From Natronohydrobacter sp. (GTDB lineage Bacteria; Pseudomonadota; Alphaproteobacteria; Rhodobacterales; Rhodobacteraceae): a DNA stretch of 64,000 nt. The notes below the pieces were generated by a model. That model had not been told where the DNA came from. It was given only the letters and a program-made list of their open reading frames with translations, and did not search any database. The translations under genes were made by a program, and so were the position numbers. Positions 12,452 to 39,615 of this stretch are shown piece after piece. Location: assembly GCA_030603695.1 (NCBI GenBank), contig JAUVXF010000016.1:1-64000 (forward strand), given 5' to 3'. The first letter of the stretch is position 1, and each line of letters begins with the position of its first letter.

Positions 12452-13777
12452 ATGTCTCTTGATCCGCGCCTGTTAAACAATATCCGCGTCGCTGTGGCCG
12501 ATCTGAATGGCCATGCGCGCGCAAAGCGTGTGCCTGCGGTGCAATATAATGCCCTGATGGCGGGAGAGGTGAAAATGCCCCTCTCGGCGCTTAATCTGGA
12601 TATCTGGGGCAATGATATCGCAGACAGCCCGTTTGTATTTGAAACGGGCGATGCCGATGGCTTTTTGCGCCCGACAGAGCGCGGGCTTTTGCCAATGCCA
12701 TGGATCGGGCCAGATGCCGCCATGCTGCCAATGTGGATGTATCACGCCGATGGCCGCCCGTTCGAGGGTGATCCCCGCCATGCACTTGCGCGCATCAAGG
12801 CGCGCTATGAGGCGCTGGGGCTGCGCGCTGTAACGGCCACAGAGCTGGAATTCTATTTGATAGATGACACGGAAGAGCGGTTTTTGCCGCCCATAAGCCC
12901 TGTCTCTGGCCGCCGTGCAATGGGGGCGGCCACGCTGTCCATGCGGATGCTGGACGAATTCAACGCCTTTTTCGATGCCCTTTATGCCGGGTGCGAGGCC
13001 ATGGGGATCGAACCCGATACCGCCACATCAGAGGCCGGGCCGGGCCAGTTTGAAATCAATCTGCATCATGGCGATGACCCTTTGAAAATGGCGGATGATA
13101 CATGGCTGTTCAAAATCCTTGTGCGGCGCTTGGCGCGCTCGCATGGGATGGCGGCCAGTTTCATGGCCAAACCCTATGCGGCGGCCTCTGGCAGCGGGCT
13201 GCATCTGCATGCATCGCTGGTGGATGACGCGGGGCGCAATGTGTTTGACAATGGCGGGCCAGAGGGTAGCGCCATGCTGCGCCATGCCATTGGCGGTGTA
13301 TTGGCGGCCATGCCGGATTCTGCGCTGATCTTCGCGCCCCATGCCAATAGCTATGCGCGTCTTGTGCCGCATGCCCATGCGCCAACAGGGGTGGCTTGGG
13401 CCTATGAGAACCGCACGGCCTCTGTGCGCGTGCCGGTCGGGGCACCCAAGGCGCGGCGGCTGGAACACCGCACTGCCGGGGGCGATGTGAACCCCTATCT
13501 GTTGATGAGTGCCGTTCTGGGGGCCATGTTGATAGGGATAGAGGATCACATCACCGCGCCCGCACCTGTCACAGGTGACGCCTATTCGCAAAACCTGCCG
13601 CAAATTCCGGGTACATGGGCAGAGGCGGTGGACAGTTTCGCCCACTCTCCCCATATGCGGCGCATATTCGATCCGGTGCTGATAGATAACATGGTGCGCA
13701 CCAAGCGGCAGGAAATGGCCGGGGTTGCGGCGCTGTCGGAACAGCAGCTCTTGGACTTGTATCTTGAATCTGTCTAG
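12452..13777 (+). CDS. Glutamine-synthetase-family ligase, gamma-glutamylputrescine-synthetase-like (first copy)
   Basis: The 441-residue protein has the GS beta-grasp N-terminus (RVAVADLNGHARAKRVP) and catalytic domain. Visible active-site elements are ATELEFYLID, EAGPGQFEINLHHGD, GSGLHLHASL and the arginine-rich NRTASVRVP. It lacks the adenylylation loop of the true GlnA at 35-36.5 kb. Relatives such as PuuA and GlnT attach glutamate to amines or amino acids using ATP. Its position directly behind the ABC transporter suggests it acts on the imported compound. It is clearly different in sequence from the second copy at 14844, so the two are old paralogues, not a recent duplication. Confidence 0.85.
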   Translation: MSLDPRLLNNIRVAVADLNGHARAKRVPAVQYNALMAGEVKMPLSALNLDIWGNDIADSPFVFETGDADGFLRPTERGLLPMPWIGPDAAMLPMWMYHADGRPFEGDPRHALARIKARYEALGLRAVTATELEFYLIDDTEERFLPPISPVSGRRAMGAATLSMRMLDEFNAFFDALYAGCEAMGIEPDTATSEAGPGQFEINLHHGDDPLKMADDTWLFKILVRRLARSHGMAASFMAKPYAAASGSGLHLHASLVDDAGRNVFDNGGPEGSAMLRHAIGGVLAAMPDSALIFAPHANSYARLVPHAHAPTGVAWAYENRTASVRVPVGAPKARRLEHRTAGGDVNPYLLMSAVLGAMLIGIEDHITAPAPVTGDAYSQNLPQIPGTWAEAVDSFAHSPHMRRIFDPVLIDNMVRTKRQEMAGVAALSEQQLLDLYLESV

Positions 13778-14063
13778 TGGTCTGCCCCAGAGGGAAGGTT
13801 CCGTTATGCAGGGCAGAGATGGGGGGCGTGGGGATATTGACAAAGCCGCGCAGCGTCGGGCCGCGGTGCGGCGATCTGGCTTTGAGGCTATGCGCTTTAT
13901 GGAGGCAAAGTCCGAACGAAACGGAAGCTAAGCGCAGGATGCAGCCAAATCGCCGTGCCGGGGGGCGGCCCGGCGATGCGCGGCGGCCTTCGGCCTTGAC
14001 TCCGCGCTTGGTGCTCAGCTCCAACGTCCCCTAACCGCTGAAACCCGCCTTCTGGGTATCTTG
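13776..14063 (+). repeat. Dispersed intergenic repeat, copy A (left end - core - right end)
   Basis: The left end begins at the preceding stop codon (CTAGTGGTCTGC, then GAAGGTTCCG). The core spans about 13843-14011 and is bounded by AAGCCGCGCAGCG and ACTCCGCGCTTGG. The right end runs to GGGTATCTTG. The core matches copies B (24580), C (28524) and D (22018). Relative to its ends it has the same orientation as C and the opposite orientation to B and D. The core contains a stem, ATCGCCG with CGGCGAT. It encodes no plausible protein. Confidence 0.85.
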
Positions 14064-14142
14064 TGCGCGGATCAGAATAGAGGCACCTTGTCAGGGCAGA
14101 GGGTGCAATGCTAAATTTGATCAAATCTAATGAGAGTGTCAG

Positions 14143-14847
14143 ATGAAAATCGGTATCCTGCAAACAGGTCAGGCCCCGGAGGTGCTGCGCACCACCCTTG
14201 GGGATTATCCGGCCATGTTCGCGCGCCTGCTTGCGGGCCATGGCTTTGAATTCCAGACTTGGCATGTCGAGGCGATGGAATTCCCCCGCGCGATAGCGGA
14301 TGCCGATGGCTGGCTGATTACCGGATCGCGCCATGGGGTGTATGAAGATCACCCTTTCATCGCGCCGCTAGAGCAGTTTGTCCGCGATGCCTTGGGCGCG
14401 GGGCGGCCTGTGGTGGGTATCTGCTTTGGCCATCAGATCATGGCGCAGGCGCTGGGCGGGAAAGTGGCAAAATTTGCTGGCGGCTGGGCCGTGGGGGCGC
14501 AGCGCTACCAGTTTGGCGATACCGAACTGGCCCTGAATGCCTGGCATCAGGATCAGGTGCTTACCCCGCCCCAAGGTGCGCAAACCCTTGCAGCCAACGC
14601 GTTTTGCGCCCATGCAGCGCTGGCTTATGGCGCGCATGGGTTTTCCGTGCAGGCCCATCCTGAATTTGAGGATAGCTTTATCAAAGGGCTGATAGACACA
14701 CGCGGTCGCGGCGTTGTGCCTGATACCCTGCTTGAAAGCGCGCTTGCCCAACAGGGCGAGCCGCGCGACAGTGACAAGATCGCCGCGCGCATAGCCGCGC
14801 ATTTCAAACAGCATGCGCCCGCGCATGCCGGATCGGAGGGCCAATGA
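14143..14847 (+). CDS. Class I glutamine amidotransferase-like protein
   Basis: The 234-residue protein is a stand-alone class I GATase domain. The nucleophile elbow is GICFGHQ (Cys), and the His-Glu pair sits in QAHPEFED. WLITGSRHGVYED resembles GMP-synthase-like and yeast/actinobacterial amidase families. In this operon it sits between two gamma-glutamyl ligases and an FAD oxidase, the slot taken in the Puu pathway by a gamma-glutamyl-GABA hydrolase. PuuD has a different length and motif pattern, so the hydrolase role is inference. Its stop overlaps the next ATG (ATGA). Confidence 0.82.
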   Translation: MKIGILQTGQAPEVLRTTLGDYPAMFARLLAGHGFEFQTWHVEAMEFPRAIADADGWLITGSRHGVYEDHPFIAPLEQFVRDALGAGRPVVGICFGHQIMAQALGGKVAKFAGGWAVGAQRYQFGDTELALNAWHQDQVLTPPQGAQTLAANAFCAHAALAYGAHGFSVQAHPEFEDSFIKGLIDTRGRGVVPDTLLESALAQQGEPRDSDKIAARIAAHFKQHAPAHAGSEGQ

Positions 14848-16199
14848 GCCTATGGAAAGAACAGATTCCCGAAGCCGCGCGTGAATTCCTGTCAGGTCGC
14901 CGCCTGGACGAGGTGGAATGCATCATTGCCGACATGGCGGGTGTGGCCCGTGGCAAGGCCATGCCGGCCTATAAATTTGATGAAAACTCCAAATACTACC
15001 TGCCCACATCGATCTTTCTGCAAACCATAACCGGGGGCTGGGCCGAATTCCGCGATGGCGCGGATCTGGAACCCGACATGATCATGCGGCCCGATTTCTC
15101 TACGGCCACTGCCGCGCCCTGGACAGCGGATTGGACATTGCAAATCATCCATGACGCCGAAGATCAGGATGGCAACCCCATCACCACCGCGCCGCGCAAT
15201 GTCCTCAAGCGGGTGTTGGAACTGTATCGCGCCGAAGGATGGCAGCCTGTCATTGCGCCGGAGATGGAGTTTTTCTTCGTCGCCCGCAATCTTGATCCCA
15301 ATATGCCCATCATCCCGCCCATGGGCCGCACGGGGCGGCGGGCGGCTGCGCGCCAAGCCTATTCCATGTCGGCCGTAGATGAATACGGCAAGGTGATAGA
15401 CGACATCTATGATTTTGCCGAGGCCATGGGGCTGGAGATTGACGGCATCTTGCAAGAAGGGGGCGCGGGGCAGGTTGAAATCAACCTAGCCCATGGCGAC
15501 CCGCTGAACCTGGCCGATCAGGTGTTTTACTTCAAACGCATGATCCGCGAGGCCGCTTTGCGCCATGACATGTTCGCCACCTTCATGGCCAAGCCCATAG
15601 AGGGCGAGCCGGGAAGTGCCATGCATATTCACCATTCGGTGCTGGATGTGAAAACCGGGCGCAATCTCTTTTCCACCGAAGAGGGGAAAAGCACAGATGA
15701 ATTCATGCATTTCATCGGCGGGTTGCAGCGCCATTTGCCCTCTGCCGTGGCGCTGATTGCCCCTTATGTGAACAGCTATCGCCGCTATGTGCCAGATTTC
15801 GCGGCGCCGATAAATCTGGAATGGGGCTATGACAACCGCACCACCGGCTTGCGCGTGCCCATTTCTGCCCCGGCTGCGCGGCGTGTGGAAAACCGCTTGG
15901 CGGGGATGGATTGCAACCCATATCTGGGGATCGCGGCTTCTCTGGCCTGCGGATATCTGGGGTTGAAAGAACGGATCGGCCCGCGCGAGGAATGCCGCAC
16001 CAATGCCTATATGGACGAGGATGAATTGCCCCGCACCCTTGGCAGCGCGCTGGATTTGTTCGATGATGCCACGGCCCTGCATGACATTCTTGATCCCGAA
16101 TTCAGCCGGATTTACGCGGCTGTAAAGCGCGATGAATATAACGAGTTCTTGCAAGTTATCAGCCCATGGGAGCGTGAGCATCTGCTCTTGAACGTATGA
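14844..16199 (+). CDS. Glutamine-synthetase-family ligase, gamma-glutamyl amine synthetase-like (second copy)
   Basis: The 451-residue protein shows the GS fold: VECIIADMAGVARGKAMP at the N-terminus, APEMEFFFVAR, EGGAGQVEINLAHGD, GSAMHIHHSV and NRTTGLRVP as active-site segments. It is closer in pattern to PuuA-type gamma-glutamylputrescine synthetases than the first copy is. It starts by ATGA overlap with the amidotransferase and ends by ATGA overlap with the FAD oxidase, so the three are co-translated. Expected reaction: ATP-dependent joining of glutamate to a primary amine. The exact substrate is unknown. Confidence 0.87.
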   Translation: MSLWKEQIPEAAREFLSGRRLDEVECIIADMAGVARGKAMPAYKFDENSKYYLPTSIFLQTITGGWAEFRDGADLEPDMIMRPDFSTATAAPWTADWTLQIIHDAEDQDGNPITTAPRNVLKRVLELYRAEGWQPVIAPEMEFFFVARNLDPNMPIIPPMGRTGRRAAARQAYSMSAVDEYGKVIDDIYDFAEAMGLEIDGILQEGGAGQVEINLAHGDPLNLADQVFYFKRMIREAALRHDMFATFMAKPIEGEPGSAMHIHHSVLDVKTGRNLFSTEEGKSTDEFMHFIGGLQRHLPSAVALIAPYVNSYRRYVPDFAAPINLEWGYDNRTTGLRVPISAPAARRVENRLAGMDCNPYLGIAASLACGYLGLKERIGPREECRTNAYMDEDELPRTLGSALDLFDDATALHDILDPEFSRIYAAVKRDEYNEFLQVISPWEREHLLLNV

Positions 16200-17491
16200 A
16201 TCTGCTCTATGCCAATGACAGGGCGGGGGAATACCCGCCCAGCTATTATGCGGCCACTGCCACGGCCTTGCCCCCTTTTGCGCCCCTCAATGGCGCGCAT
16301 AAGGCAGATGTCTGCATTGTGGGGGCAGGCTATACCGGGCTATCTGCGGCGCTGCATCTGGCGGAGCGGGGCTATAGCGTTATCGTGCTGGAGGCCCATC
16401 GTGTGGGTTTCGGGGCATCGGGGCGCAATGGCGGGCAGGTGGGGCCGGGCCAGCGCATAGAGCAGGACGAGATAGAGCGCATGGTCGGGCGCGATGATGC
16501 GCGCAAACTGTGGCATATCGGGCTGGAAGCGCGTGATCTGGTGCAAGCGCTGATTGCGCGGCATGGCATGGATTGCGGTTGGAAACCGGGTGTGCTGCAT
16601 GCCGAATGGCAGGCGCGCAACCTGCCCCATGCCCGCGCCTATGCCGAGAAACTGGCGCGCGACTATGATTACCCCTATCTCGAACCCCTTGGCCGCGCCG
16701 CGTTGCAAGAGATTGTGCGCGCGCCCGTCTATCAGGGCGGTGTGCTGGATCATGGGGCAGGGCATCTGCACCCTTTGCGCTATGTGCTGGGCTTGGCGCG
16801 TGCAGCCGCCAAGGCCGGGGCGCAGATTTGCGAGAATTCGCTTGTCACCGAAATTCGCCCCGGTGCGCGGGCACAGGTGCACACGGCCACAGGCCATGTC
16901 GAGGCCGCGCATGTGCTGATTGCGGCCAATGGCTATCTGGGTGGGCTGGTGCCGCAGGTGGCGGCCAAGGTTATGCCGATCAACAATTTCATCATTGCCA
17001 CCGAGCCCTTGCCACAAGGCACAGTGCTGGCGCGTGATGTGGCGGTGGCTGACAGCAAATTCGTGATCAATTATTTCCGCCTGTCAGAGGATGGGCGGCT
17101 TTTGTTCGGGGGGGGCGAAAGCTATGGCTACCGCTTTCCTGATATCCTGCGCACAGTGCGCAAACCGATGCTGCAAGTTTTTCCGCAGTTGCGCGATACG
17201 CAGATTACCCATGCCTGGGGCGGCACCTTGGCCATCACGCGCACGCGCTTGCCCTGCTTTTTGCGGGTTGGGCCGAATATTCTGTCGGCCTCTGGTTATT
17301 CGGGGCATGGGGTGGCGCTTGCCAGCCTTGCCGGGCAGATCATGGCGGATACTGTGGCGGGGCAGGCGGAACGGTTTGATCTGATGGCGGGGCTAAAGCT
17401 GCCCAGCTTTCCGGGCGGGCGCGCGCTGCGCAGCCCGCTTCTGGCGCTGGCAATGACATGGTTTTCCCTGCGCGACAGGCTGGGAATATAG
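16196..17491 (+). CDS. FAD-dependent amine oxidase (PuuB-like gamma-glutamylputrescine oxidase)
   Basis: The 431-residue DAO-family protein has the Rossmann FAD motif VCIVGAGYTGLSAALHLAERG (partial) and the second glycine-rich stretch GFGASGRNGGQVGPGQR, typical of PuuB and related oxidases. The C-terminal SGYSGHGVALASLAGQ contacts FAD in this family. It likely oxidises the gamma-glutamylated amine to an aldehyde, releasing ammonia and peroxide. It is the last gene of the unit and is followed by a hairpin. No aldehyde dehydrogenase is adjacent; GabD at 28.8 kb could act later in the route. Confidence 0.88.
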   Translation: MNLLYANDRAGEYPPSYYAATATALPPFAPLNGAHKADVCIVGAGYTGLSAALHLAERGYSVIVLEAHRVGFGASGRNGGQVGPGQRIEQDEIERMVGRDDARKLWHIGLEARDLVQALIARHGMDCGWKPGVLHAEWQARNLPHARAYAEKLARDYDYPYLEPLGRAALQEIVRAPVYQGGVLDHGAGHLHPLRYVLGLARAAAKAGAQICENSLVTEIRPGARAQVHTATGHVEAAHVLIAANGYLGGLVPQVAAKVMPINNFIIATEPLPQGTVLARDVAVADSKFVINYFRLSEDGRLLFGGGESYGYRFPDILRTVRKPMLQVFPQLRDTQITHAWGGTLAITRTRLPCFLRVGPNILSASGYSGHGVALASLAGQIMADTVAGQAERFDLMAGLKLPSFPGGRALRSPLLALAMTWFSLRDRLGI

Positions 17492-17520
17492 GGCGCGTCG
17501 CGTCGCTACGCGCCCCGTTT
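17491..17520. terminator. Hairpin between the convergent oxidase and phaR genes
   Basis: GGGCGCGT pairs with ACGCGCCC (8 bp) around a 9-base loop, followed by CGTTTC. It lies between two convergent stop codons and may serve both directions; the T-run is short. Confidence 0.6.
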
Positions 17521-17529
17521 CAGGCTGTA

Positions 17530-18072
17530 TCAGCCATTCATCTTGTTCAGCTTTTGCTGCAATTCCGCCAGTTGCTTCTTGATCTCGTCCAGATCATCAT
17601 CGCCGTTTTTGGCGCTTGTCCCGGCTGGAATGCCCGGCCAGCCAGCCATCATGGTTTTCATGAAGGCTTGTTGCTGGCGCTGCATTTCCTCAAACCCCGG
17701 CATGGCTGCCATCGGGTTGGCGCGGGCCATGTTCTCGACAATCTTGGATTGCCCGTCCCGCAGCATTTCAAACGACATCGCCAGAAATTGCGGCACAACG
17801 CTTTGCGCTTGGCTGGTATAGCTGCGCACCAGATCTGTCAGCACATCCAGCGGCAGCACATTTTCGCCACGGCTTTCATGCTCTGCAATGATCTGCAACA
17901 GATATTGGCGGGTCAGATCATCGCCGGATTTCAGATCCACGATTTGCACTTCGCGGCCTGCACGGATGAACCCTGCAATATCTTCCAGCGTCACATAATC
18001 GCTGGTCTCTGTGTTATACAACCGACGGCTCGCATAACGCTTTATCAGAAGTGGCTTCGCAGTGTCTGACAT
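17530..18072 (-). CDS. phaR: Polyhydroxyalkanoate synthesis repressor PhaR
   Basis: The 180-residue protein opens with the PhaR DNA-binding/PHB-binding signature LLIKRYASRRLYNTETSDYVTLEDI. A second helical PHB-accumulation regulatory domain follows, and a C-terminal coiled coil (LDEIKKQLAELQQKLNKM). The start at 18072 is preferred to 18108 because AGGGGGAACC lies just upstream. PhaR represses phasin and its own gene until PHB granules titrate it. A near-perfect CTGC-N3-GCAG site (TTGCGTTGCAG, 18095-18105) lies upstream of its start, and two perfect ones lie before phaP. Confidence 0.95.
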   Translation of the reverse strand: MSDTAKPLLIKRYASRRLYNTETSDYVTLEDIAGFIRAGREVQIVDLKSGDDLTRQYLLQIIAEHESRGENVLPLDVLTDLVRSYTSQAQSVVPQFLAMSFEMLRDGQSKIVENMARANPMAAMPGFEEMQRQQQAFMKTMMAGWPGIPAGTSAKNGDDDLDEIKKQLAELQQKLNKMNG

Positions 18073-18094
18073 GGTTCCCCCTAGCGCATGTTTG

Positions 18095-18105
18095 TTGCGT
18101 TGCAG
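18095..18105. promoter_or_regulatory. Candidate PhaR operator upstream of phaR
   Basis: TTGCGTTGCAG differs at one base from the CTGC-N3-GCAG consensus reported for Rhodobacter PhaR. It is 22 bases upstream of the phaR start codon, a fitting place for autorepression. Confidence 0.55.
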
Positions 18106-18134
18106 CAAGACTAGGTGAGGTTTTCACAAAAGGA

Positions 18135-18161
18135 AAGGGCGAGCGTGAAACGCTCGCCCTT
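18135..18161 (-). terminator. Rho-independent terminator of phaP
   Basis: A perfect 12-bp stem (AAGGGCGAGCGT with ACGCTCGCCCTT) has a 3-base loop. On the minus strand it is followed by the T-rich TTTCCTTTTG. It lies 49 bases past the phaP stop and separates phaP from phaR. Confidence 0.9.
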
Positions 18162-18209
18162 GTGCCTGGCCTAACCGGGGAGGACGGTTGGCCCTGCGAT
18201 CCGTGAAGC

Positions 18210-18656
18210 TTACTTCGCGGCAGCGGTTTTGGCAGCTTTGGTTGCTGTGTCGGTTGCTTTCTTGACAGCAGCAGAAGCTTCTTCCTGAATGTCCTTGCCA
18301 GCAGCCATCATCAGCTCAACTGTGTCCATCTGGACTTTTTTCGCGATTTCAGCGAAAGCGGCAACATGCTCTGCGGCCATTTCGGCAGAAGCGGATGCAA
18401 AATCGGTGACAGCTTTGGTGTAATCTGCGGGATCGTCCTTGACGGTCGAGATTTCGCCAACTTTAGCCAGCGTTGCTTTTGTCCACTTTGTCGAAACTTC
18501 GGTGGATTTTTCAGCAGCTTCCAGAGCAACTTTGCTCATTTTCTCTGCCAGAGCGGCTTGCGATTTGAACGCGTCCTGCATTGCGGATGTGTCCATCGGG
18601 AACGCGCCCAGCATGTCTTTCATCAGTTTTGTGTAATCGGGTGTTGCAGCAGCCAT
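18210..18656 (-). CDS. phaP: Phasin PhaP, PHB granule-coating protein
   Basis: The 148-residue protein is almost entirely amphipathic helix, Ala/Lys/Glu-rich, with no membrane segment and a Lys/Ala-rich tail (AVKKATDTATKAAKTAAAK). These are phasin-family features. The start MAAATPDYTKLMKD at 18656 follows AAGGAGAATAGAC; the longer frame to 18740 would run through the operator region. Phasins coat PHB granules, control their number and size, and are made when PhaR is titrated. It has its own terminator and an operator-bearing promoter region, so it can be expressed far above phaC. Confidence 0.93.
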   Translation of the reverse strand: MAAATPDYTKLMKDMLGAFPMDTSAMQDAFKSQAALAEKMSKVALEAAEKSTEVSTKWTKATLAKVGEISTVKDDPADYTKAVTDFASASAEMAAEHVAAFAEIAKKVQMDTVELMMAAGKDIQEEASAAVKKATDTATKAAKTAAAK

Positions 18657-18726
18657 GTCTATTCTCCTTGATTGGATCGTGGAGCAGATCGCTTCGTGCT
18701 CTCTGCATCTGTTCCCAATATGCATG

Positions 18727-18765
18727 CTGCGGTGCAGCATTTCAAGTATTTTTTCTGCGCCGCAG
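18727..18765. promoter_or_regulatory. Two PhaR operators upstream of phaP
   Basis: CTGCGGTGCAG (18727-18737) and CTGCGCCGCAG (18755-18765) are two perfect CTGC-N3-GCAG inverted repeats, 28 bases apart centre to centre, in the 135-bp gap between phaC and phaP. This is the site reported for PhaR in Rhodobacter sphaeroides. The T-rich stretch between them probably belongs to the phaP promoter. Confidence 0.8.
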
Positions 18766-18791
18766 CATTTTTTTGAATGGCTAAAATAACC

Positions 18792-20594: not shown

Positions 20595-20720
20595 GAAACA
20601 AAATCCCCCGTATTCTTCGCATGTGCAGCAAAGACCCCTCATATGATCTTAACGCTGTAACGCGATGAATAAAAGCGACGATTCCTGTTGAATGGTCGTC
20701 AGCAAAGAATGGGGACACGC

Positions 20721-22001
20721 ATGAAGGGCATGGCGACTTACGATTTGATGGAGTCGATTCGAAATACAAACGAGTGGATGGGGGCATCCGCGCGCGCATT
20801 TGCATCTTATCCCGTTTGGGGAATGGCCCCTAACCCGATGTTCAAGGTCATGTCGGCATGGGGGCGGGTGACAGAACGCAGCTTTGCCCGGATGGTGATC
20901 AAGCCTGATTGGGGGATCAGCAATATTTTGGGCGAAGATGGGCGGGATCATACCGTGGAAGCGGTGGTGGAACTGGCCCGCCCCTTTGGCGATCTGACCC
21001 GCTTCAAGGTGCATGGCCGCCCGGAAAAAACCCGCCGCGTGCTGCTATGTGCGCCGATGTCGGGCCATTATGCTACGCTTTTGCGCTCTACTGTGGCCAG
21101 CCTGCTGCCAGATTGCGAAGTCTGGGTCACGGATTGGCACAATGCGCGCGATATTCCCGTCTCCGAGGGCAAGTTCGATATCGAGGATTATACGGTTTAT
21201 CTGATGGATTTCATGCGCCATCTGGGGCCGGATACCCATGTTATCGCCGTATGCCAGCCCGTGCCGCTTGCCCTGGCCGCAACCGCCTATCTGGCAGAGC
21301 TTCACCCCGATGCCCAGCCCCGCACCCTGACGCTGATCGGCGGGCCGATCGATCCCGATGCCGCCCCAACCGAGGTAACCGATTTTGGCCGCCGCGTGAC
21401 AATGGGGCAGTTGGAGCATCTGGCCATTCAGCGCGTGGGCTTCAAATACAAGGGCGTGGGGCGGCTGGTCTATCCGGGGCTTTTGCAGCTTGGCGGCTTC
21501 ATCTCTATGAATATGGATCGCCACGCACAGGCATTTGCCGATAAAATCTCTGCCGAGGCGCGCGGTGATGGCGGCGAGCGTGACAAGCATAACCGCTTTT
21601 ATGACGAATATCTTGCTGTGATGGATATGACAGCTGAATTCTATCTGTCCACGGTGGAACGAATTTTCAAAGACCGCGAAATCGCGCGCAATGCCTTTAT
21701 GGTGGGCAAGCACAAGGTGGATTTTTCCAAGATTACCAAGGTTGCCGTGAAGGTGGTTGAAGGTGAGAAAGACGATATCAGCGCGCCCGGCCAGTGCTAT
21801 GCCGCGCTTGATCTTCTCACAGGCTTGGCGCCCGAACAAAAGGCCAGCCATATGGAACCCGGCGCAGGGCATTACGGCATTTTTGCCGGCAAATCCTGGC
21901 GCAACAATATCCGACCGCTGGTGATGGGGTTCATGGATACCCATTCTGGCGGTGGTGGTGGGGCCACAGCCGGGCTGAAATTGGCGGCGTCTAACGGGTA
22001 G
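20721..22001 (+). CDS. phaZ: Intracellular PHB depolymerase PhaZ
   Basis: The protein has the short-sequence intracellular depolymerase layout: an N-terminal YDLMESIRNTNEWMGASARA stretch, the nucleophile elbow AVCQP where cysteine replaces the usual lipase serine, and a late GAGHYGIFAGKSWR histidine motif. It degrades native granules to 3-hydroxybutyrate units. Start choice is uncertain: TTG 20688, ATG 20709, ATG 20721 and ATG 20730 are in frame. ATG 20721 has GGGGAC about 7 bases upstream and the family-like MKGMATYD start. Divergent pairing with phaC is common in Rhodobacterales. Confidence 0.92.
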   Translation: MKGMATYDLMESIRNTNEWMGASARAFASYPVWGMAPNPMFKVMSAWGRVTERSFARMVIKPDWGISNILGEDGRDHTVEAVVELARPFGDLTRFKVHGRPEKTRRVLLCAPMSGHYATLLRSTVASLLPDCEVWVTDWHNARDIPVSEGKFDIEDYTVYLMDFMRHLGPDTHVIAVCQPVPLALAATAYLAELHPDAQPRTLTLIGGPIDPDAAPTEVTDFGRRVTMGQLEHLAIQRVGFKYKGVGRLVYPGLLQLGGFISMNMDRHAQAFADKISAEARGDGGERDKHNRFYDEYLAVMDMTAEFYLSTVERIFKDREIARNAFMVGKHKVDFSKITKVAVKVVEGEKDDISAPGQCYAALDLLTGLAPEQKASHMEPGAGHYGIFAGKSWRNNIRPLVMGFMDTHSGGGGGATAGLKLAASNG

Positions 22002-22017
22002 GGTTCTGCGCGTTAGG

Positions 22018-22190
22018 CAATATCCGAATGGGCTGGTAGGAACGGTTAGGGGACAGTGGCGCAGCGCACCAAGCCGCGCAACCTTGGGCCGCGGCGCTGC
22101 GTCATGTGAGAGGGGATGTCCCTTCGCATGACAATGCAAGGCGGCCTTTGGCCTTGGTTCCGCGCGGGGCGATTGGCCCTGACCGTCCCC
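22018..22190 (-). repeat. Dispersed intergenic repeat, copy D (reverse orientation, core shortened)
   Basis: On the plus strand this reads as the reverse complement of the right end (CAATATCC ... GGTTAGGGGAC ... GCACCAAG), then core edge AAGCCGCGCAACC. A divergent middle (about 22085-22135) contains a near-palindrome, GTCATGTGAGAGGG with CCCTTCGCATGAC. The other core edge (GGCGGCCTTTGGCCTTGGTTCCGCGC) follows, then a trace of the left end (CCCTGACCGTCCCC, as in copy B). Core orientation relative to the ends matches copy B. The rest of the gap to 22424 holds no gene. Confidence 0.75.
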
Positions 22191-22424
22191 CTCCATAGCG
22201 GCCCCAAATTGTGGAAGATGTAGGCAGGGGCACAACGCCAGAGCGCGGCCCGCGCAGTCTGAAACTCATGGCGGCGGCTCTGGGCTTTTTCAAACATGCG
22301 CTGCCACCATGCCGGAAGAGCCGGTGCGCTGCTTGGCCGCGTGTTTTTCTGGCAGAGGCATTTCAATTCAGGCCAAGGCGCATTAGATCACCAAAAACCG
22401 TAATTTTGCGCTTCGAGGTATGTC

Positions 22425-23786
22425 ATGCATGATCGCCATCTGACTGAAACCTTGGCCCCTGTGGCCAATGCCCTGTTGCGCGCCGCAAAGGCTGCCGGGG
22501 CAGATGCCGCAGATGCGATTGCGATAGAGGGGCGCTCTGTTTCCATAGATGTGCGCAAGGGCGGGTTGGAACAGGCCGAACGCTCGGAAGGGGTGGATAT
22601 CGGCTTGCGCGTGTTTATCGGCAAGCGCCAGGCCTGTATTTCCTCTTCCGATACGCGGCCAGAAACGCTGGCCGCGATGGCGGCACGCGCCGTCGCCATG
22701 GCGAGAGAGGCCCCCGAAGACCCCTATGCAGGGCTGGCAGAGACGGGACAACTTGCCCTGTTGCGCAGCGCCGAGGGGTTGGAACTGTTTGATCCCGCCC
22801 CAGAGCCAGACCCCGCCACGCTGCAAGAAGATGCGCGCCGCGCAGAGGCGGCGGCGCTCGCGGTTTCCGGCGTGGCGCAGGTGCAATCGGCCTCTGCGGC
22901 TTATGGCACGCAGGCGATCTGGCTTGCGGCAAGCAATGGGTTTCAGGGCGGCTATGCGCGCAGCTCTCGCCATATCTCGGCTGTGGCCATCAGTGGCGAA
23001 GGCACAGGGATGGAGCGCGATTGGTGCGGCGAGGGGCGGATTTTTCAAGCCGATTTGCCCAGCCCCGAAGACGTGGGGACGCTGGCAGGCATGCGGGCGG
23101 CCGAACGCACAAGGCCGCGCAGGCCCAAAACCGGGGCTTATCCCGTGCTTTATGACGAGCGCGTGGCCTCCAGCCTGATCGGGCATTTGCTGGGGGCGAT
23201 CAATGGCGCAGCGATTGCGCGCGGTTCCAGTTGGTTGCGCGATGCCATGGGCCAGCAGGTTTTGCCTGCGGGTATCAGTCTTACGGAAAACCCGCTGCGG
23301 GTGCGCCGCGCGGGTTCGCGCCCCTTCGATGCTGAAGGGCTGCAAAGCCGCATCAAGGATCTGGTGGCGGATGGGGTATTGCAAAGCTGGGTGCTGGATT
23401 TGGCCACGGCGCGCAAGCTGGGGTTGGAGAGCACGGCAAATGCCGCGCGCGGCACATCTGCGCCGCCCGCACCCTCCACATCCAATCTGTTGCTTACCCA
23501 AGGGCCAAAATCGCGCGCAGAATTGATTGCGGATATGGGCACAGGGCTTTTGGTTACATCGCTGATCGGTTCCACGATAAACTCCACCACGGGCGATTAT
23601 TCGCGTGGGGCCAGCGGGTTTTGGGTGGAAAACGGGCAAATTGCCTATCCGGTGAATGAATGCACAATCGCAGGCAATCTGCGAGAGATGCTCACGCGCC
23701 TTATCCCGGCCAATGACGGGCGCGACCATCTGTCCACGGTTGTCCCCTCGCTGCTGGTAGAAGGCATGACACTTGCCGGAGAATGA
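22425..23786 (+). CDS. pmbA: TldD/PmbA-family metalloprotease subunit PmbA (TldE)
   Basis: The 453-residue protein has the TldE/PmbA pattern: IDVRKGGLEQAERSEGVDIGLRVFIG in the N-terminal domain and DYSRGASGFWVENGQIAYPVNECTIAGN near the end. The C-terminus is PSLLVEGMTLAGE. It lacks the HExxxH zinc motif, as expected for the PmbA partner of TldD, which carries the zinc. The heterodimer processes peptides such as antitoxins and microcins. GAGG lies just ahead of ATG 22425. tldD itself is not in the window. It overlaps the next gene by 14 bases. Confidence 0.93.
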   Translation: MHDRHLTETLAPVANALLRAAKAAGADAADAIAIEGRSVSIDVRKGGLEQAERSEGVDIGLRVFIGKRQACISSSDTRPETLAAMAARAVAMAREAPEDPYAGLAETGQLALLRSAEGLELFDPAPEPDPATLQEDARRAEAAALAVSGVAQVQSASAAYGTQAIWLAASNGFQGGYARSSRHISAVAISGEGTGMERDWCGEGRIFQADLPSPEDVGTLAGMRAAERTRPRRPKTGAYPVLYDERVASSLIGHLLGAINGAAIARGSSWLRDAMGQQVLPAGISLTENPLRVRRAGSRPFDAEGLQSRIKDLVADGVLQSWVLDLATARKLGLESTANAARGTSAPPAPSTSNLLLTQGPKSRAELIADMGTGLLVTSLIGSTINSTTGDYSRGASGFWVENGQIAYPVNECTIAGNLREMLTRLIPANDGRDHLSTVVPSLLVEGMTLAGE

Positions 23787-24582
23787 GGCCGATCTGGCGT
23801 TGCTGGTTTCGGCAGCGCATGCGGCAGGAGAGATAGCGCGCCGCCATTTCGGCGATGGCCCGAAATTCTGGGACAAAGGCGCGGGGCTTGGCCCGGTGTC
23901 AGAGGCCGATCTGGAAGTGGACACCATGCTACGTGGCAGGCTGTTGCAGGCGCGTCCTGACTATGGCTGGTTGTCCGAAGAAACGGCAGATCACCCCGCG
24001 CGGCTGGAGCGCGAGCGCGTGTTCATCATAGACCCGATAGACGGCACGCGCGCTTTTCTGGAGGGGCAGACGGGTTTTGCCAATGTCCTTGCCATCGTTG
24101 AAGGTGGTATCCCCGTTGCAGCGGTGGTGCATCTGCCGATGCTGGGGCACACCTATAGCGCCGCGCGCGGGCAAGGCGCTTATCTGGGCGGCACGCGGCT
24201 ACAAGTCAGCCCGCCCCGCGCTGTTGCCGGGGCGAATGTGCTGGCCGCCCGCCCGGCATTGGCAGAGGCGAATTGGCCGGGCGGTGTGCCGCCTGTCACA
24301 CGCCATTTCCGCCCCTCGCTGGCATGGCGCATGGCGCTTGTGGCCGAAGGCTGTTTCGATGCCATGCTGGCGCTGCGCCCGACATGGCATTGGGATATTG
24401 CGGCAGGCGCGCTCTTGATTGCAGAGGCCGGGGGCGTTGTCAGCACAGGGCGTGGCGGGGCCTTGCAGTTTAACACCCCCGATCTTGTGGCCGATGGTGT
24501 TCTTGCCGCCGGGCCGGCGCTGCATGCGGCGCTTTTGTCGCACCGCCTGCCGCCCGATCCCGATCAGCCGCCGCCGCGCTAG
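23773..24582 (+). CDS. Inositol-monophosphatase-family phosphatase (CysQ-like), TTG start
   Basis: The 269-residue protein carries the Li-sensitive phosphatase motifs: metal site WLSEETAD, DPIDGTRAF and the late WHWDIAAGALLIAEAGG. These bind three Mg ions and hydrolyse phosphomonoesters such as 3'-phosphoadenosine 5'-phosphate or inositol phosphate. The only usable start that keeps the conserved N-terminal helix (LLVSAAHAAGEIARRHF) is TTG 23773, since the upstream frame is closed and the next ATG is about 50 codons in. It has GAAGG 8 bases upstream and lies within the end of pmbA, so coupling is likely. CysQ versus IMPase cannot be separated by eye. Confidence 0.88.
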   Translation: MPENEADLALLVSAAHAAGEIARRHFGDGPKFWDKGAGLGPVSEADLEVDTMLRGRLLQARPDYGWLSEETADHPARLERERVFIIDPIDGTRAFLEGQTGFANVLAIVEGGIPVAAVVHLPMLGHTYSAARGQGAYLGGTRLQVSPPRAVAGANVLAARPALAEANWPGGVPPVTRHFRPSLAWRMALVAEGCFDAMLALRPTWHWDIAAGALLIAEAGGVVSTGRGGALQFNTPDLVADGVLAAGPALHAALLSHRLPPDPDQPPPR

Positions 24583-24880
24583 TGTTCTGCATTAGCCGGA
24601 AGGTTCCGCGATGAGGGGCAGCTTTGGCGGGGGTGGGGACGGTCAGGGCTGATTGCCATGCGCGGAATCAAGGCCGCAGGCCGCCGCGCATCGCCGGGCC
24701 GCCCCCCGGCACGGCGATTTGGCTGCAACCTGCGCATAGCTTGGATTTCGCGCGGATTTGGCCAGCATAAAGTGACATAGCCTTGGCGCTGGATCGCCGC
24801 ACCGCGGCCCAGCGCTGCGCGGCTTGGTGCGCTACCCTAATGCCCCCTAACGGCTCAAAACCTGCCCTATGGATATCTTG
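24580..24880 (+). repeat. Dispersed intergenic repeat, copy B (left end - inverted core - right end)
   Basis: The left end starts at the preceding stop codon (CTAGTGTTCTGC, GGAAGGTTCCGCGATG) and matches copy A's left end in the same orientation. The core (about 24660-24826) is the reverse complement of A's core. The right end (CCCCCTAACGGCTC ... GGATATCTTG) again matches A's in the same orientation. The core edges GCGCGGAATCAAGG and CGCTGCGCGGCTTGG are the points where orientation switches. Confidence 0.85.
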
Positions 24881-25071
24881 CCTAAGGTTCAAAGCACCGG
24901 GAGTCATAGGCCAAACGGCCCTTGGGCTTTCCAACCGGGGCAATGTTGCGATAAGACAGGGTCAGGCATTTGGCGCGAAAGGGAATGACAGGATGATCGC
25001 AGGCTGGCCCCATCCCGGCACGTCCCGCCTTGCGTGCTGCCTGCCGATTTTCGCGCAGGGGTAAGCCGCCA

Positions 25072-26277
25072 ATGCCGCCCCCCTCTCTGCTTGATCAGAT
25101 GTTCTCTGCGGGGCGCAAGCCGGGGGCAGAACTGCCTGCAAGCCTCTCGCGCTTATCTGCGCCCCTGATCTGGCTGCATGCCGATGATCTGCGCGCCACA
25201 CAGATGTTGGCGGGGTTTTCCGAAACTGTCTTGCAGCGCGCCCCCAATACCAGCATTTTGCTGACCGGCCCGGAATTTCCGCCCGATCTGGCCGAATTGC
25301 CAAATCGTATCTGCCTGCCCTTGGCCAATGATGACCCAGAGCCAGCGCGCCAGATTCTGGAACGCATAAGCCCCGCTAGCGCGCTGATTGCCGCCCAGAC
25401 CCTGCCCGCCCATCTTATCCGTGCGCTGGCATTGCGCAGGGTGCCTGTTTTCATTGTGGAAACAGGCAAGCCGCGCCATGGGTCGCGCTGGCAAAGACTG
25501 CCGGGAATGACCCGTCACCTTTTGGCCGGGGTAGAGACAGTCTTCGTGCAGACAGCCGCAAGCAAAGCCGCTTGGCTGGCTTTGGGGATGCGCGATGATG
25601 CGATTGTGCGGGCTGGCCGCTTGTCTGGCATGCCGGTGGCGCTGCGCTGCAACGAGGCCGAGCGCGAGGAACTGTCCGAGGCGTTCCGCCATCGCACGCT
25701 GTGGCTTGCAGCCGGGTTGCCAGAGCGCGAAGAGGCTGCCGTTCTGGCCGCCCACCGCGAGGCGATGCGCGAAAGCCACCGCCTTGGCTTGATCCTGCAA
25801 CCGGCAGACCCGATGCGCGGGCCGGAACTGCGCGCCCGCTGTGCCGAGCAATTTGTCACCGCGCTGCGCTCTGTGGATGATCCGGTCATGCCGGATACGC
25901 AAGTTTATGTGGCCGATACCGAAGGCGAGCGCGGCTTGTGGTATCGGCTGGCCGTGGCGTGCTATCTGGGCGGCACATTGGGGGCGGATGGGCCATCCCT
26001 TAGCCCGATGGAACCAGCAGGCCTCGGCTGTGCCATCATTCATGGCCGCATGTTTGGCCGCTATTCCGAAGCTTTTGATATGCTTCGCGAAGCGCGCGCC
26101 ACCCGCATGATCCAAAGTGCAGAGGCTTTGGGTTCGGCGCTATGCACAGCGCTGCGCCCTGAACAGGCCGCAGATCAGGCACATCGGGCGTGGCAGGTCA
26201 TTTCCGGCGGGTCTGCGGCAACTGAAACCATCATGGGGGCCTTGCTGAAATATGCGGCCTCGAAAGGAAAAGCCTGA
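25072..26277 (+). CDS. waaA: 3-deoxy-D-manno-octulosonic acid transferase WaaA (KdtA)
   Basis: The 401-residue glycosyltransferase adds Kdo to lipid A precursors at the inner membrane. Visible family features are the N-terminal domain ([15 protein letters not shown]), [16 protein letters not shown] and, in the C-terminal domain, [18 protein letters not shown] and the nucleotide-sugar-binding end of a retaining GT-B fold ([26 protein letters not shown]). ATG 25072 is chosen over TTG 25030, which lacks a ribosome-binding site. The ATGA overlap with lpxK supports a lipid A role. It is more divergent than enterobacterial WaaA and lacks an obvious N-terminal anchor helix. Confidence 0.85.
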
Positions 26278-27275
26278 TGCGCGCGCCCGGTTTTTGGTTC
26301 AACCCGCCCCATGCGCCGGGCCTGCGCGCGCGGCTTCTGGGGCCTTTGGCCGCGCTTTATGCACGCATCACAGCGCGGCGCGTGGCCCGCGCGCCAGAGT
26401 TTCGTGCCCCTGTCCCGATAATCTGCGTGGGCAATATCAACATTGGCGGCACTGGCAAAACCCCCACCGTAATCGCGCTGGCGCAGATGCTGCTTGCGAT
26501 GGGGCATAAGCCGCATATCCTGTCGCGCGGCTATGGTGGCAGTCTGGTCGGGCCGGTCGCGGTGGATATTCGCGGCCATAGCGCCGCGCAAGTGGGGGAT
26601 GAGCCGCTATTGATGGCCGCCTTTGCGCCTGTCTGGGTGGCACGGGCGCGGGCAGAAGGGGCGCGCGCAGCTGTGGCGGCGGGGGCGGATGTGCTGATCA
26701 TGGATGACGGGTTTCAAAACCCGGCCTTGGCCAAGGATTTATCGGTGGTTGTGGTGGACGCGGCCACAGGCTTTGGCAATGGCCGCGTGCTGCCTGCCGG
26801 CCCTTTGCGCGAGCCCGTGGCGGCGGGGCTGGCGCGGGCCGATCTGGTGCTGAGCATCGGCCCGCCAGAGATGCAGGCCCGTTTCACCCTTGCCCCCGGC
26901 CTGCCTGCGCGCCCTGTGTTGCGCGCCGCCCTTAAGCCTTTGCAAATGGGCATGACATGGCAGGGGCTGCGCGTTCTGGCCTTTGCCGGCATCGGGCGGC
27001 CAGAGAAATTCTTTGCCACGCTGCGCGCGGAAGGGGCCGAAGTGCTGCGCGCCGAGGCCCTGAGCGATCACCAGCCCCTGACAGAGGCCCTGATGGCCCG
27101 GCTGGAATTCGAGGCCAAGGCGCTGGGTGCGCAACTGGTTACAACCGAAAAAGACGCCGTGCGACTGCCTGCGAAATTCCGCGCCAAGGTGCTGGCCCTG
27201 CCTGTGCGGCTGGAATTTGCGCAACCAGAGCAGATAGAGGCAATGTTGCGCAAGGTGATGGGCGCGGATGTGTAA
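26277..27275 (+). CDS. lpxK: Tetraacyldisaccharide 4'-kinase LpxK
   Basis: The 332-residue protein begins with an amphipathic membrane-associating helix ([20 protein letters not shown]). The P-loop is [12 protein letters not shown]. Further conserved motifs are [30 protein letters not shown] (catalytic Asp-Asp) and [11 protein letters not shown]. It phosphorylates the 4' position of the lipid A disaccharide using ATP. ATG 26277 overlaps the waaA stop. It is followed after 94 bases by the IS110 gene on the opposite strand; a weak stem at 27287-27307 may end this transcript. Confidence 0.95.
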
Positions 27276-27369
27276 GCTGGGGCGCAGGCTGGGGGACATA
27301 GCCAGCCCTGCACCGCCGCTTGCAGCGCGGATGCAGGATCTGCATGACAGCTTAGAGTATCCGTCTTGA

Positions 27370-28302
27370 TCAAGCTGTTTTTGGCGTCCATTTGCGGTCT
27401 TGTCGGACGAGTGCGTTGGCCAGTTCGATGAGCTTTCGCATGAGTGCTGTCAGAGCGACCTTTGCGGGTTTTCCATCCGATGTCATCGCTTGGTATTTCT
27501 GCCTCAGATCCGGATTGTAGCGAGCTGCGACAAGTGCCGGCATATATAGCGCATCGCGCAGGAATTTGCGCCCGCCTTGAATGAACGCCTTACCCCGCCA
27601 CTGCCCTGATTGCCGCGTCATAGGTGCAAGGCCCGCAAGGCTCGCGATCTGCTTGCGGCTCAGGGTGCCGATTTCTGGGCATTCGACCAGGATCGCGACC
27701 GCAGTGATCCGGCCCAGCCCCGGGATCGAGCACAGAATATCAAAGGCGCGTGCGCGTTTTGGGCACTGGCGCGCGAGGTCCAGCAGCGCGTCTTCCAGTT
27801 CAGAGATCTGGCGTTTGATCTGCTCAAGCCGGGCCTTGGCCTGTCGTTTAAGCAGGGTCAAGGACTGCGTTTTAGATCGGTTCAGCAATCGCGTGCGTTC
27901 CTTGATCAGAGCCATGCGTGCGATCTGCAATTCTTTGAGGGCAGGCTGATTTTTGTCCGCCGGCGCATCCGGCACAAGATCGAGCGCCGCTCCCATCATG
28001 GCGAGGGCGCGCGCATCAACGGCATCTGTCTTGGCCCTTGTCCCGCGGGCCTGCGCAAAGCGGCGAGCCTGCAGCGGGTTCACTTTCACGAGCGGCAGGA
28101 CACCTGCAAAGCCGCGTTCGAGAGCGGCATGGTAAGCACCGGTTGCCTCATAGGCCACCAGATCCGGCATTGCGGCGCCGATCCAGCGACGAAGTGCCCG
28201 CAGGCCGGCTACCGAGTTCGCAAATTGCCGCGCTTCGTTATCGATCAGGCGATGCGCGTCGAGAGTGTCTTTCGATATGTCGATTCCGATGGTATCTTTC
28301 AT
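27370..28302 (-). mobile_element. IS110-family transposase (DEDD recombinase)
   Basis: The 310-residue protein starts at 28302 (MKDTIGIDISKDTLDAHR). It has the RuvC-like DEDD set: Asp in GIDISKDT, Glu in VAYEATGAYH and two Asp in KTDAVDARALA. A coiled middle and the C-terminal Tnp20 region follow (SIPGLGRITAVAIL, ASLAGLAPMTRQSGQWRG), with the catalytic serine in RQSG. IS110 elements use a guide (bridge) RNA made from their non-coding end and lack terminal inverted repeats, so exact borders cannot be drawn. The gene is intact. Non-coding DNA upstream of it (28303 to about 28523) is long and structured, as in the IS110 subgroup. It lies between lpxK and a truncated copy of the dispersed repeat. 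Confidence 0.92.
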
Positions 28303-28523
28303 TGTCCTCGCGTGTCCTATGCTTGTCGTAGAGGGCTTCGTGCCGCTCTGTATCCGTTCAGGCCTCAGGCGAAGACGATGGCTGATCACACTCTAAAACG
28401 GTCCTTAACGACCAAGCCTGTGACGATCCAGCCACCGCCACTGCACGCCATAAATGGCGTGCAGTGGCTCTTTATTCGCACAAGAGCCACCATCAGCATA
28501 AGACAAGCGGGTTGCAGACATTC
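28303..28523 (-). ncRNA. Candidate IS110 bridge-RNA region with nested hairpins
   Basis: This is about 220 bases of non-coding DNA directly upstream of the transposase. It holds a perfect 13-bp stem with 4-base loop at 28438-28467 (CCACTGCACGCCA, loop TAAA). A second stem of 9 bp at 28464-28490 (GTGGCTCTT with AAGAGCCAC) shares bases with the first, so the two are alternatives. Size and position match the left end that encodes bridge RNA in IS110-group elements. The programming loops and core dinucleotides cannot be assigned without other copies. Confidence 0.45.
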
Positions 28524-28719
28524 GGGTAGCGCACCAAGCGCGGAATCGAGGGCGTCAGCCCGCCGCGCATCGCTGGGCCGCCCCCCGGCACAGCGATTTG
28601 GCTGCCACCTGCGCATAGCCTGAGTTTCGTTCGGACGTGGCCAGTATAAAGCGCTAAGCACTGCTGCCGGATTGCCGCACCGCGGCCCATCAATGCGCGG
28701 CTTTGGCTATGTTCCCCCA
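28524..28719 (-). repeat. Dispersed intergenic repeat, copy C (right end truncated near the IS110 element)
   Basis: Starting at GGGTAGCGCACCAAG, this is the inner part of the right end (reverse complement), then the core (GCGCGGAATCGAGG to ATGCGCGGCTTTGG) and a short part of the left end (TATGTTCCCCC). Orientation of core to ends equals copy A. The outer right-end sequence present in A, B and D stops here exactly where the IS110 non-coding end begins. The rest of the gap to 28829 shows nothing else. Confidence 0.78.
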
Positions 28720-28829
28720 TAACCGCCGCGCGCCTTGCAGCCCCTTTGCCGCAATGATCAGCTGTGTCGCCCAGCGGTTAGCCATCACCCATGGCCCGAG
28801 GCTGCAACCCTGCTTCGGGCCATATGTGC

Positions 28830-39387: not shown

Positions 39388-39472
39388 GCGGGTGTGGCGA
39401 AATTGGCAGACGCACCAGATTTAGGTTCTGGCGCCGCAAGGCGTGGGGGTTCAAGTCCCTCCACCCGCACCA
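39388..39472 (+). tRNA. tRNA-Leu (anticodon TAG)
   Basis: A class II tRNA with acceptor stem GCGGGTG/CACCCGC and D arm GCG...CGC. The anticodon stem CCAGA/TCTGG has loop TTTAGGT, giving anticodon TAG (reads CUA). The variable arm is CGCC-GCAA-GGCG and the T arm GGGGG TTCAAGT CCCTC. The 3' ACCA is encoded. Confidence 0.97.
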
Positions 39473-39528: not shown

Positions 39529-39615
39529 TGGTGGCCCCTGAGGGACTCGAACCCTCACGCCCATACGAGCCTCAGATTTTAAGTCTGGTCTGTCTACCAG
39601 TTCCAGCAAGGGGCC
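39529..39615 (-). tRNA. tRNA-Leu (anticodon TAA)
   Basis: On the minus strand the acceptor stem is GGCCCCT/AGGGGCC with encoded ACCA. The anticodon loop CTTAAAA gives anticodon TAA (reads UUA), the variable arm is GCTC-GTAT-GGGC and the T arm GAGGG TTCGAGT CCCTC. The outermost anticodon-stem pair is a C-A mismatch (CCAGA against TCTGA). It is convergent with the other tRNA-Leu, 56 bases away. Confidence 0.95.

Follow-up and report, generated by a model that had tools for sequence, protein, structure and literature searches.

Short repeats of Natronohydrobacter with fixed arms and a core found in both orientations: evidence suggesting cassette exchange between IS630-type elements

The first 64,000 nucleotides of contig JAUVXF010000016.1 of Natronohydrobacter sp. 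(assembly GCA_030603695.1, forward strand; hereafter the window) carry four copies, A to D, of an intergenic repeat of ∼300 bp in which a central core lies between two distinct arms, L and R. In this repeat family the order of the arms is fixed and the core occurs in both orientations; at sites shared with a related genome, cores are found flipped as well as replaced, and the outer ends resemble those of IS630-type insertion sequences. We think it probable that the repeats are an IS630-type family of miniature inverted-repeat transposable elements (MITEs) with a modular interior, whose cassettes are exchanged by recombination between copies and not turned by a dedicated inversion switch. Exchange is the only reading considered here that covers the flipped sites, the replaced cores, the sites holding a second core family and the sites on Pseudosulfitobacter plasmids together.

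Arm order and core orientation in the source genome

The source genome of the window (G000; 2.95 Mb, 40 contigs) was searched with copies A and B; G, C and L numbers denote genomes, contigs and fetched stretches or elements, respectively. With the best 40 candidates scored per genome for these queries, at least 64 matches to copy B (E≤0.01) and at least 69 to copy A (E≤1) were obtained, far more than the four copies counted by an earlier note on this sequence, and many of them form tandem arrays with a third linker, K. The 50 stretches fetched around the matches, together with the window, gave 79 non-overlapping core stretches, full or partial, in which the 130-base flank on either side of the core was scored for likeness to consensus sequences of the L arm, the R arm and the array linker K (score threshold 34; maximum from shuffled flanks 31).

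The arm types of the 79 stretches were RL 13, KK 13, K- 10, LR 9, untypable 8, L- 6, KL 4, R- 4, -K 3, -L 3, -R 3, KR 1, RK 1 and LK 1, with neither LL nor RR. The proposal of the earlier note that the ends keep their order while the core comes both ways thus holds genome-wide in G000, and the number of matches and the accepted arms, all scoring above every shuffled flank, ruled out chance similarity of GC-rich sequence. In G033, the closest relative found, the 23 typed stretches comprised R- 5, untypable 4, LR 3, RL 3, L- 2, -L 2, K- 2, LK 1 and -K 1, again with no LL or RR. On G000 contigs C18, C2, C29, C31 and C7, cores form tandem arrays in which they alternate with K linkers of ∼95 bp, and some arrays are closed off by an L or an R arm, as L070 shows (R-core-K, K-core-L).

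The four copies of the window are composed as follows.

13774..14080, plus strand: copy A, whole (L arm, reversed core, R arm); right end by eye
13774..13839, plus strand: copy A, L arm with IS630-like end, GGAAGGTTCCG, GGGCAG and GGGGATATT
13845..14007, minus strand: copy A, core, head at right
14008..14080, minus strand: copy A, R arm
21998..22243, minus strand: copy D, L-core-R with a short core; arm types and ends by eye
22127..22165, minus strand: copy D, core head fragment (model positions 1-39, 13.6 bits)
24579..24900, plus strand: copy B, whole (L arm, forward core, R arm)
24579..24640, plus strand: copy B, L arm with GGGGAC at its end
24660..24823, plus strand: copy B, core
24660..24689, plus strand: copy B, core head hairpin
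24824..24900, minus strand: copy B, R arm; end with 5/16 mismatches
28514..28719, plus strand: copy C, core and inner boundary repeats only, outer ends unrecognisable; R-core-L by eye
28538..28701, plus strand: copy C, core

All four copies were present where the earlier note had placed them. Its assignment of A and C to one core direction and of B and D to the other stands for A and B, both two-armed by typing; for C, whose arms score below the threshold, and for D it relies on by-eye readings of the arms (R-core-L and L-core-R, respectively). The interior of copy D consists of a core head recognised by the model and, by eye, of a tail and another short centre. Copies A and B both start at the stop codon of an open reading frame (ORF), as had been noted: copy A, with a recognised end of sequence CTAGTGGTCTGCCCCA, starts with a CTAG containing the TAG of ORF 12452-13777 (442 open codons upstream), and copy B with a CTAG containing the TAG of ORF 23773-24582. 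By eye, copy D probably also begins at a stop codon, as its R-arm end overlaps the TAG at 21999-22001 closing a putative ORF (20688-22001), itself overlapped by an open frame on the opposite strand. Some open frames extend over the copies, as is common in GC-rich DNA.

Flipped and replaced cores at orthologous sites

Flanks of the repeats are mostly 85-93% identical between G000 and G033. For the comparison we used the 11 sites where G033 has 100 or more bases of core and G000 has a core in the corresponding position; these are anchored on both sides (L110, L113, L117, L119, L125) or on one side (L112, L116, L118, L121, L122, L123). Left out of this set were L109, L114, L115, L120, L126, L128, L196 and L202 (flanks unanchored, anchors only in other repeats, or G000 coreless), the composite L111/L198, the fragment L192, L197, and the sites L124, L127, L194, L195, L199 and L201, which hold the second core family (L194 and L201 anchored on one side).

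The core was flipped at four of the 11 sites (L110/L045, L112/L048, L113/L040 and L123/L031; two of the four anchored on both sides) and unflipped at L116, L117, L118, L119, L121, L122 and L125. When the 68 G000 cores were ranked by their likeness to the G033 core, the orthologous core came first at L117 (0.957), L118 (0.926) and L125 (0.913) and third at L119 (0.902), and it ranked 18, 47 and 52 at L122, L116 and L121, respectively; these low ranks indicate that cores have also been replaced without flipping. At the flipped sites the ranks were 12, 13, 19 and 21 (identity 0.884-0.91; overall mean 0.868); given a neutral divergence of ∼10%, ranks alone do not prove replacement at L110, L112 and L113. 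In addition, a 100-bp stretch of core is identical among L121, L122 and L123, each of which lies in a different old arm, and the core of L114, typed L-core-R with an L arm just at the threshold, is 99% identical to it.

Another six sites of G033, including the orthologue of copy A, have flanks that match G000 elements and enclose a member of the second core family, core 2 (∼200 bp; related sequences occur in two genera). Core 2 was seen in G033 at L111, L124, L127, L128, L194, L195, L199, L201 and L202, and in Pseudosulfitobacter at L306. The copy A orthologue has the same arms and another interior, its remaining core-1 head facing the opposite way. The L195 element has a left and a right flank adjoining two separate G000 elements, L066 and L075, on contigs C26 and C31, a pattern that recombination between copies would give.

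A similar split was observed for L197 of G033 relative to L061, within contig C18, with rearrangement breakpoints at repeats.

Three sites were compared between Pseudosulfitobacter plasmids (L303/L306, L302/L307 and L305; the fetched L304 was not among them). In one Pseudosulfitobacter species, flanks 95.4% and 96.6% identical enclose different cassettes at L303/L306, one of them core-2-like. The pair L302/L307 differs by an altered junction and a shortened core, and no change was seen at L305 among the nine full-length copies listed.

The switched segment includes the junctions

The earlier note had located the switch points in the GCGCGG/CCGCGC sequences at the core edges. According to our by-eye comparison, the junctions switch too and the change lies near GGGGAC/GTCCCC, ∼15-25 bp outside the core. 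Core heads beside R arms are joined by junctions like GGGGACGTTGGAGCTGAGCACCAA, core heads beside L arms by junctions of GGGGACGGTCAGGGCTGATTGCCCT or GATTTGCTCTTTT type (both by eye), and copies A and B show the characteristic junctions in G000. Since the junctions differ with the neighbouring arm, the switched part would include them, out to the GGGGAC repeat, which both arms have in inverted order.

On the seven measurable sides of the flipped sites, arm identity was 0.72-0.92 (35-110 bp) versus a junction identity (18 bp) of 0.47-0.75. The junction values were 0.78 and 0.94 for the unflipped pair L117/L049, and 0.53, 0.72 and 0.67 for the replaced but unflipped L116, L121 and L122, respectively. 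Of the two explanations offered by the earlier note, one was a core that can invert, the other an origin of two families by inversion. Flips at orthologous sites, named there as support, do exist, yet the junctions differ and the cores elsewhere have been replaced.

Outer ends and relation to IS630

The arm consensus starts with CTAGTG-TCTGCACCT. A 25-base pattern of the end (≤3 mismatches) matched 28 times in 14 of the 37 genomes surveyed in the genus, and its reversed control not once. Five of the 28 matches are contig ends, one of them in G000, reading into the start of an IS630-type transposase. A full copy of this insertion sequence in G005 is bounded by CTAG and encodes a 363-residue protein scoring 267.5 bits with NCBIfam IS630 (cutoff 100) and 84.1 with Pfam DDE_3 (cutoff 28.6). 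By eye, the R-arm consensus end and the left end of the insertion sequence are alike at ∼25 of 30 bases. The repeats thus have terminal sequences matching those of an IS630-family insertion sequence, as a MITE of that family should. A size of ∼300 bp and a genome-wide total of at least 64-69 matches would suit a MITE as well.

A stop triplet occupies bases 2-4 in 20 of 35 recognised ends (≤6/16 mismatches), and in 14 of these 20 at least 100 in-frame open codons lie upstream, counts made with no control run. IS630-type insertion reportedly prefers CTAG. Insertion at CTAG keeps the TAG, so that a stop codon would be a harmless target. IS630-family elements are described as inserting at TA and duplicating it (PMC2170065).

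Several other loci carry such ends. In G004, where the IS630-type insertion sequence has probably multiplied, its start was matched 12 times, mostly at the ends of contigs. In L258:1500-2370 (G001), two IS630-like ends 868 bp apart surround a 246-residue frame resembling a LysE-type exporter (by eye), possibly a passenger-carrying element. L257:1500-2565 (G036; ∼1.06 kb) has both IS630-like ends, small frames including one of 80 residues with several cysteines, and core-like sequence near one end. L257 and L258 were rejected as full insertion sequences, having matching ends on both sides and no transposase among the listed frames.

The core: direction, relationships and spread

The core is 164 bp long, and its direction is set by the head hairpin, forward scores being clearly above reverse ones. 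It partly matches its own reverse complement, in copy A above all 300 random sequences and in copy B within the random range. At one inner pair of the head hairpin, C-G is replaced by G-C in 12 of 47 cores; in eight of the 47 there is no pairing at this position, partly from misaligned gaps. Apart from this pair, the consensus fold showed almost no covariation (term -0.21), and unusual folding was found neither for the core (z -1.27) nor for element B (z -1.04). The arms were also considered as halves of a cut palindrome forming a long hairpin. As L and R arms of one element were no more alike than arms of different elements of the same genome (38 G000, 10 G005, 6 G035 and 4 G017 elements; in G000 lower within elements, 24.2 vs 30.5), this model was dropped.

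On the core tree the orientation and array labels cluster (0 of 200 shuffles as low, three groups), the best tree requires the A/B label to change 10 times, and none of 200 bootstrap trees has any of the groups as one clade. Its signal was too weak for the tree to serve as a test of one flip versus many.

Scoring the best 20 candidates per genome, we found the core in at least 26 of the 37 genomes, G000 included (E≤1e-5), and a long exact pattern matches two named Roseinatronobacter genomes. Blastn detected it in 98 plasmid records (91 Pseudosulfitobacter, 4 Salipiger, 2 Sulfitobacter and 1 Roseinatronobacter). Judged by these matches, the 164-bp core is a family wider than the arms.

A model of cassette exchange and its alternatives

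We propose that the repeats are old MITEs, the non-autonomous counterparts of an IS630-family insertion sequence, with outer ends (CTAGTGTTCTGCACC...) to which the transposase moving them would bind. Insertion at the TA of CTAG would leave CTAG at the end of the element and keep the TAG stop, which would explain copies abutting genes. The cassette would consist of the core with its ∼20-bp junctions, edged by short inverted repeats of GGGGAC type, between the two distinct arms, and could be replaced by homologous recombination (gene conversion or gap repair) between copies. As the boundary repeat recurs in both arms, and the ends of the core are in part mutual inverted repeats, it could land either way, which may be why its orientation is free.

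Repeated inversion of the cassette in place, through inverted GGGGACATT/AATGTCCCC repeats and by RecA-type recombination or a hypothetical site-specific recombinase, would account for the four flipped sites and for near-identical cores lying both ways in one genome. It would also yield the L-arm elements of G033 with an A-type junction (L111, L114 and L116): these have GGGGACATT...core, and L114 and L116 show the expected ...AATGTCCCC on the other side, which is not visible in L111 because its contig ends there. We nevertheless consider it unlikely, since flipped pairs do not agree in their junctions, one recent cassette recurs at three sites whose old arms are different, and a different core family or an unrelated copy at the same place is not given by inversion in place, so that exchange fits better. 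Quite unlikely, too, is that the arm pairs are sockets for interchangeable hairpin cassettes, of at least two core families, swapped either way by a dedicated GGGGAC-recognising process in place of gene conversion.

The core might instead be a separate mobile element, a small MITE of its own or a REP-like unit, inserting into the arms or elsewhere. Consistent with this, the core is far wider spread than the arms, occurs in tandem arrays, has a head hairpin with one covarying pair and, in G005, has junctions common to sites with different outer sequence (by eye). Moreover, 33 of 50 cores scanned at loci beyond the typed sets (two from G033 and two from G000) have no recognisable IS630-like end, and the core may be independent of the arms in its existence. 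We regard nesting as very unlikely, as the core takes the same relative position in 22 two-armed elements, which independent insertions would hardly produce, and no arm pair devoid of core or core remnant occurred among 19 L-arm and 12 R-arm pattern matches; 27 of these 31 adjoin known cores by coordinates, and the other four, read by eye, are a shortened two-armed element, a core-head remnant, a lone coreless L arm and coding-like DNA.

Two ancient subfamilies, A and B, arising from one inversion and spread whole by transposition with no later exchange, would agree with the label clustering and the characteristic junctions, a single clade for A or B not being rejected, but are highly improbable given the number of label changes on the tree, the absence of a one-clade group from the bootstrap trees and the opposite types at the same orthologous sites, which largely refute them unless re-insertion hit the exact place with the same arms.

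Several observations weigh against the exchange of cassettes between IS630-type elements. Identities of 88-90% between the cores of L110, L112 and L113 and their orthologues lie close to the neutral level, which fits inversion in place as well, and one clade per orientation was not rejected on the core tree (p-AU 0.433 for A, 0.213 for B). The junctions that differ at all four flipped sites are short and were compared with no control; the anchoring of L112 and L123 is one-sided, the arms of L110 could not be typed, and the arm scores of L048, L112 and L114 are near the threshold. L121-L123 show one arm each, because the G033 contigs break inside cores, and the 37 genomes surveyed are mostly drafts. 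The 50 scanned cores included, besides the 33 with no recognisable end, three that were clearly RL, none clearly LR and two with R on both sides (L104, L143), so that G000 and G033 are the only genomes in which both orientations are firmly established. With regard to the ends, only 35 of 67 typed arms have a recognisable one (chance 10.9%), and 14 of these 35 begin with CTAG, a count biased by the presence of CTAG in the search pattern. In G000 the insertion sequence is truncated by the end of a contig; in the G005 copy the right end, CTAGTGTTCCGAGTCTGACACTTCC, was read by eye and matches over fewer bases than the left end, and a script search of this copy for a right end within 9/30 mismatches of the left end found none. 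Finally, neither a target duplication nor a clean empty site was shown, the spacers of copies B and D aligning poorly in G033.

Relation to known repeats

The repeats resemble pneumococcal RUP elements, likewise small and intergenic, whose ends match the IS630-family element IS630-Spn1 and whose targets contain TA (PMC2229807, PMC3049150); RUP is a simple 107-bp unit, whereas here two distinct arms enclose an exchangeable core lying either way or in tandem. To BOX elements of Streptococcus (boxA-boxB(n)-boxC), whose ends resemble an insertion sequence, the likeness is one of design only, i.e. fixed outer modules around variable tandem inner modules, seen here in the 13 K-core-K stretches and in arrays capped by arms; an inner module found both ways, or exchanged at a standing site, is absent from the BOX account as far as available to us (PMC3049150). 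In Galileo of Drosophila, the ends of one subfamily are joined to the centre of another via ectopic recombination and conversion (PMC3573991), and ends and centre have, as seems to be the case here, separate origins between copies. Galileo differs in being a eukaryotic element of the P-element superfamily with long terminal repeats, and not a short bacterial repeat with arms in fixed order.

REP/BIME repeats and rhizobial RIME elements also bear comparison. The former are similarly intergenic, palindromic, modular and clustered (PMC2817692); the ends here are, in contrast, IS630-like. MITEPye1 of Paracoccus yeei, a related bacterium, is a MITE whose ends match host insertion sequences, these ends being of IS1182 type and its chromosomal copies numbering one to three (PMC11578231). 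By these comparisons, our repeats would be like RUP in their ends and like BOX in their modules, with an interior swapped at standing sites in either direction as the added feature. In the open-access literature, available to us in part, we found neither an account of this genus's repeats nor one of bacterial MITEs with exchanged interiors.

MITEs in bacteria are generally pictured as units that transpose and afterwards degenerate. In this family, the history of the ends would seem to be separate from that of the middle, the ends staying at the site and the middle being exchanged between copies, in either direction and even across core families. If true, the family would allow recombination events among short dispersed repeats to be counted, account for the good preservation of cores within worn elements and offer a simple reason for repeats abutting stop codons. 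It also cautions that opposite orientations of a repeat need not mean a phase-variation switch.

Surroundings of the copies in the window

Copies B and D were not found at the syntenic places of G033, where 56 bases stand against 380 (B) and 94 against 343 (D), in spacers that align poorly. By eye, the gene preceding copy D ends in AAC GGT TGA in G033 and in AAC GGG TAG in G000. Around copy C, G033 is rearranged, and this place lay outside the comparison of sites: instead of window positions 27263-28790, which include copy C, contig C79 of G033 has ∼280 bases, and part of the segment matches another contig.

An RNA family as the identity of the repeats was rejected, as two tRNAs were the sole Rfam matches at gathering score in the window. 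The two tRNA genes face each other at 39388-39469 (plus strand) and 39532-39615 (minus strand).

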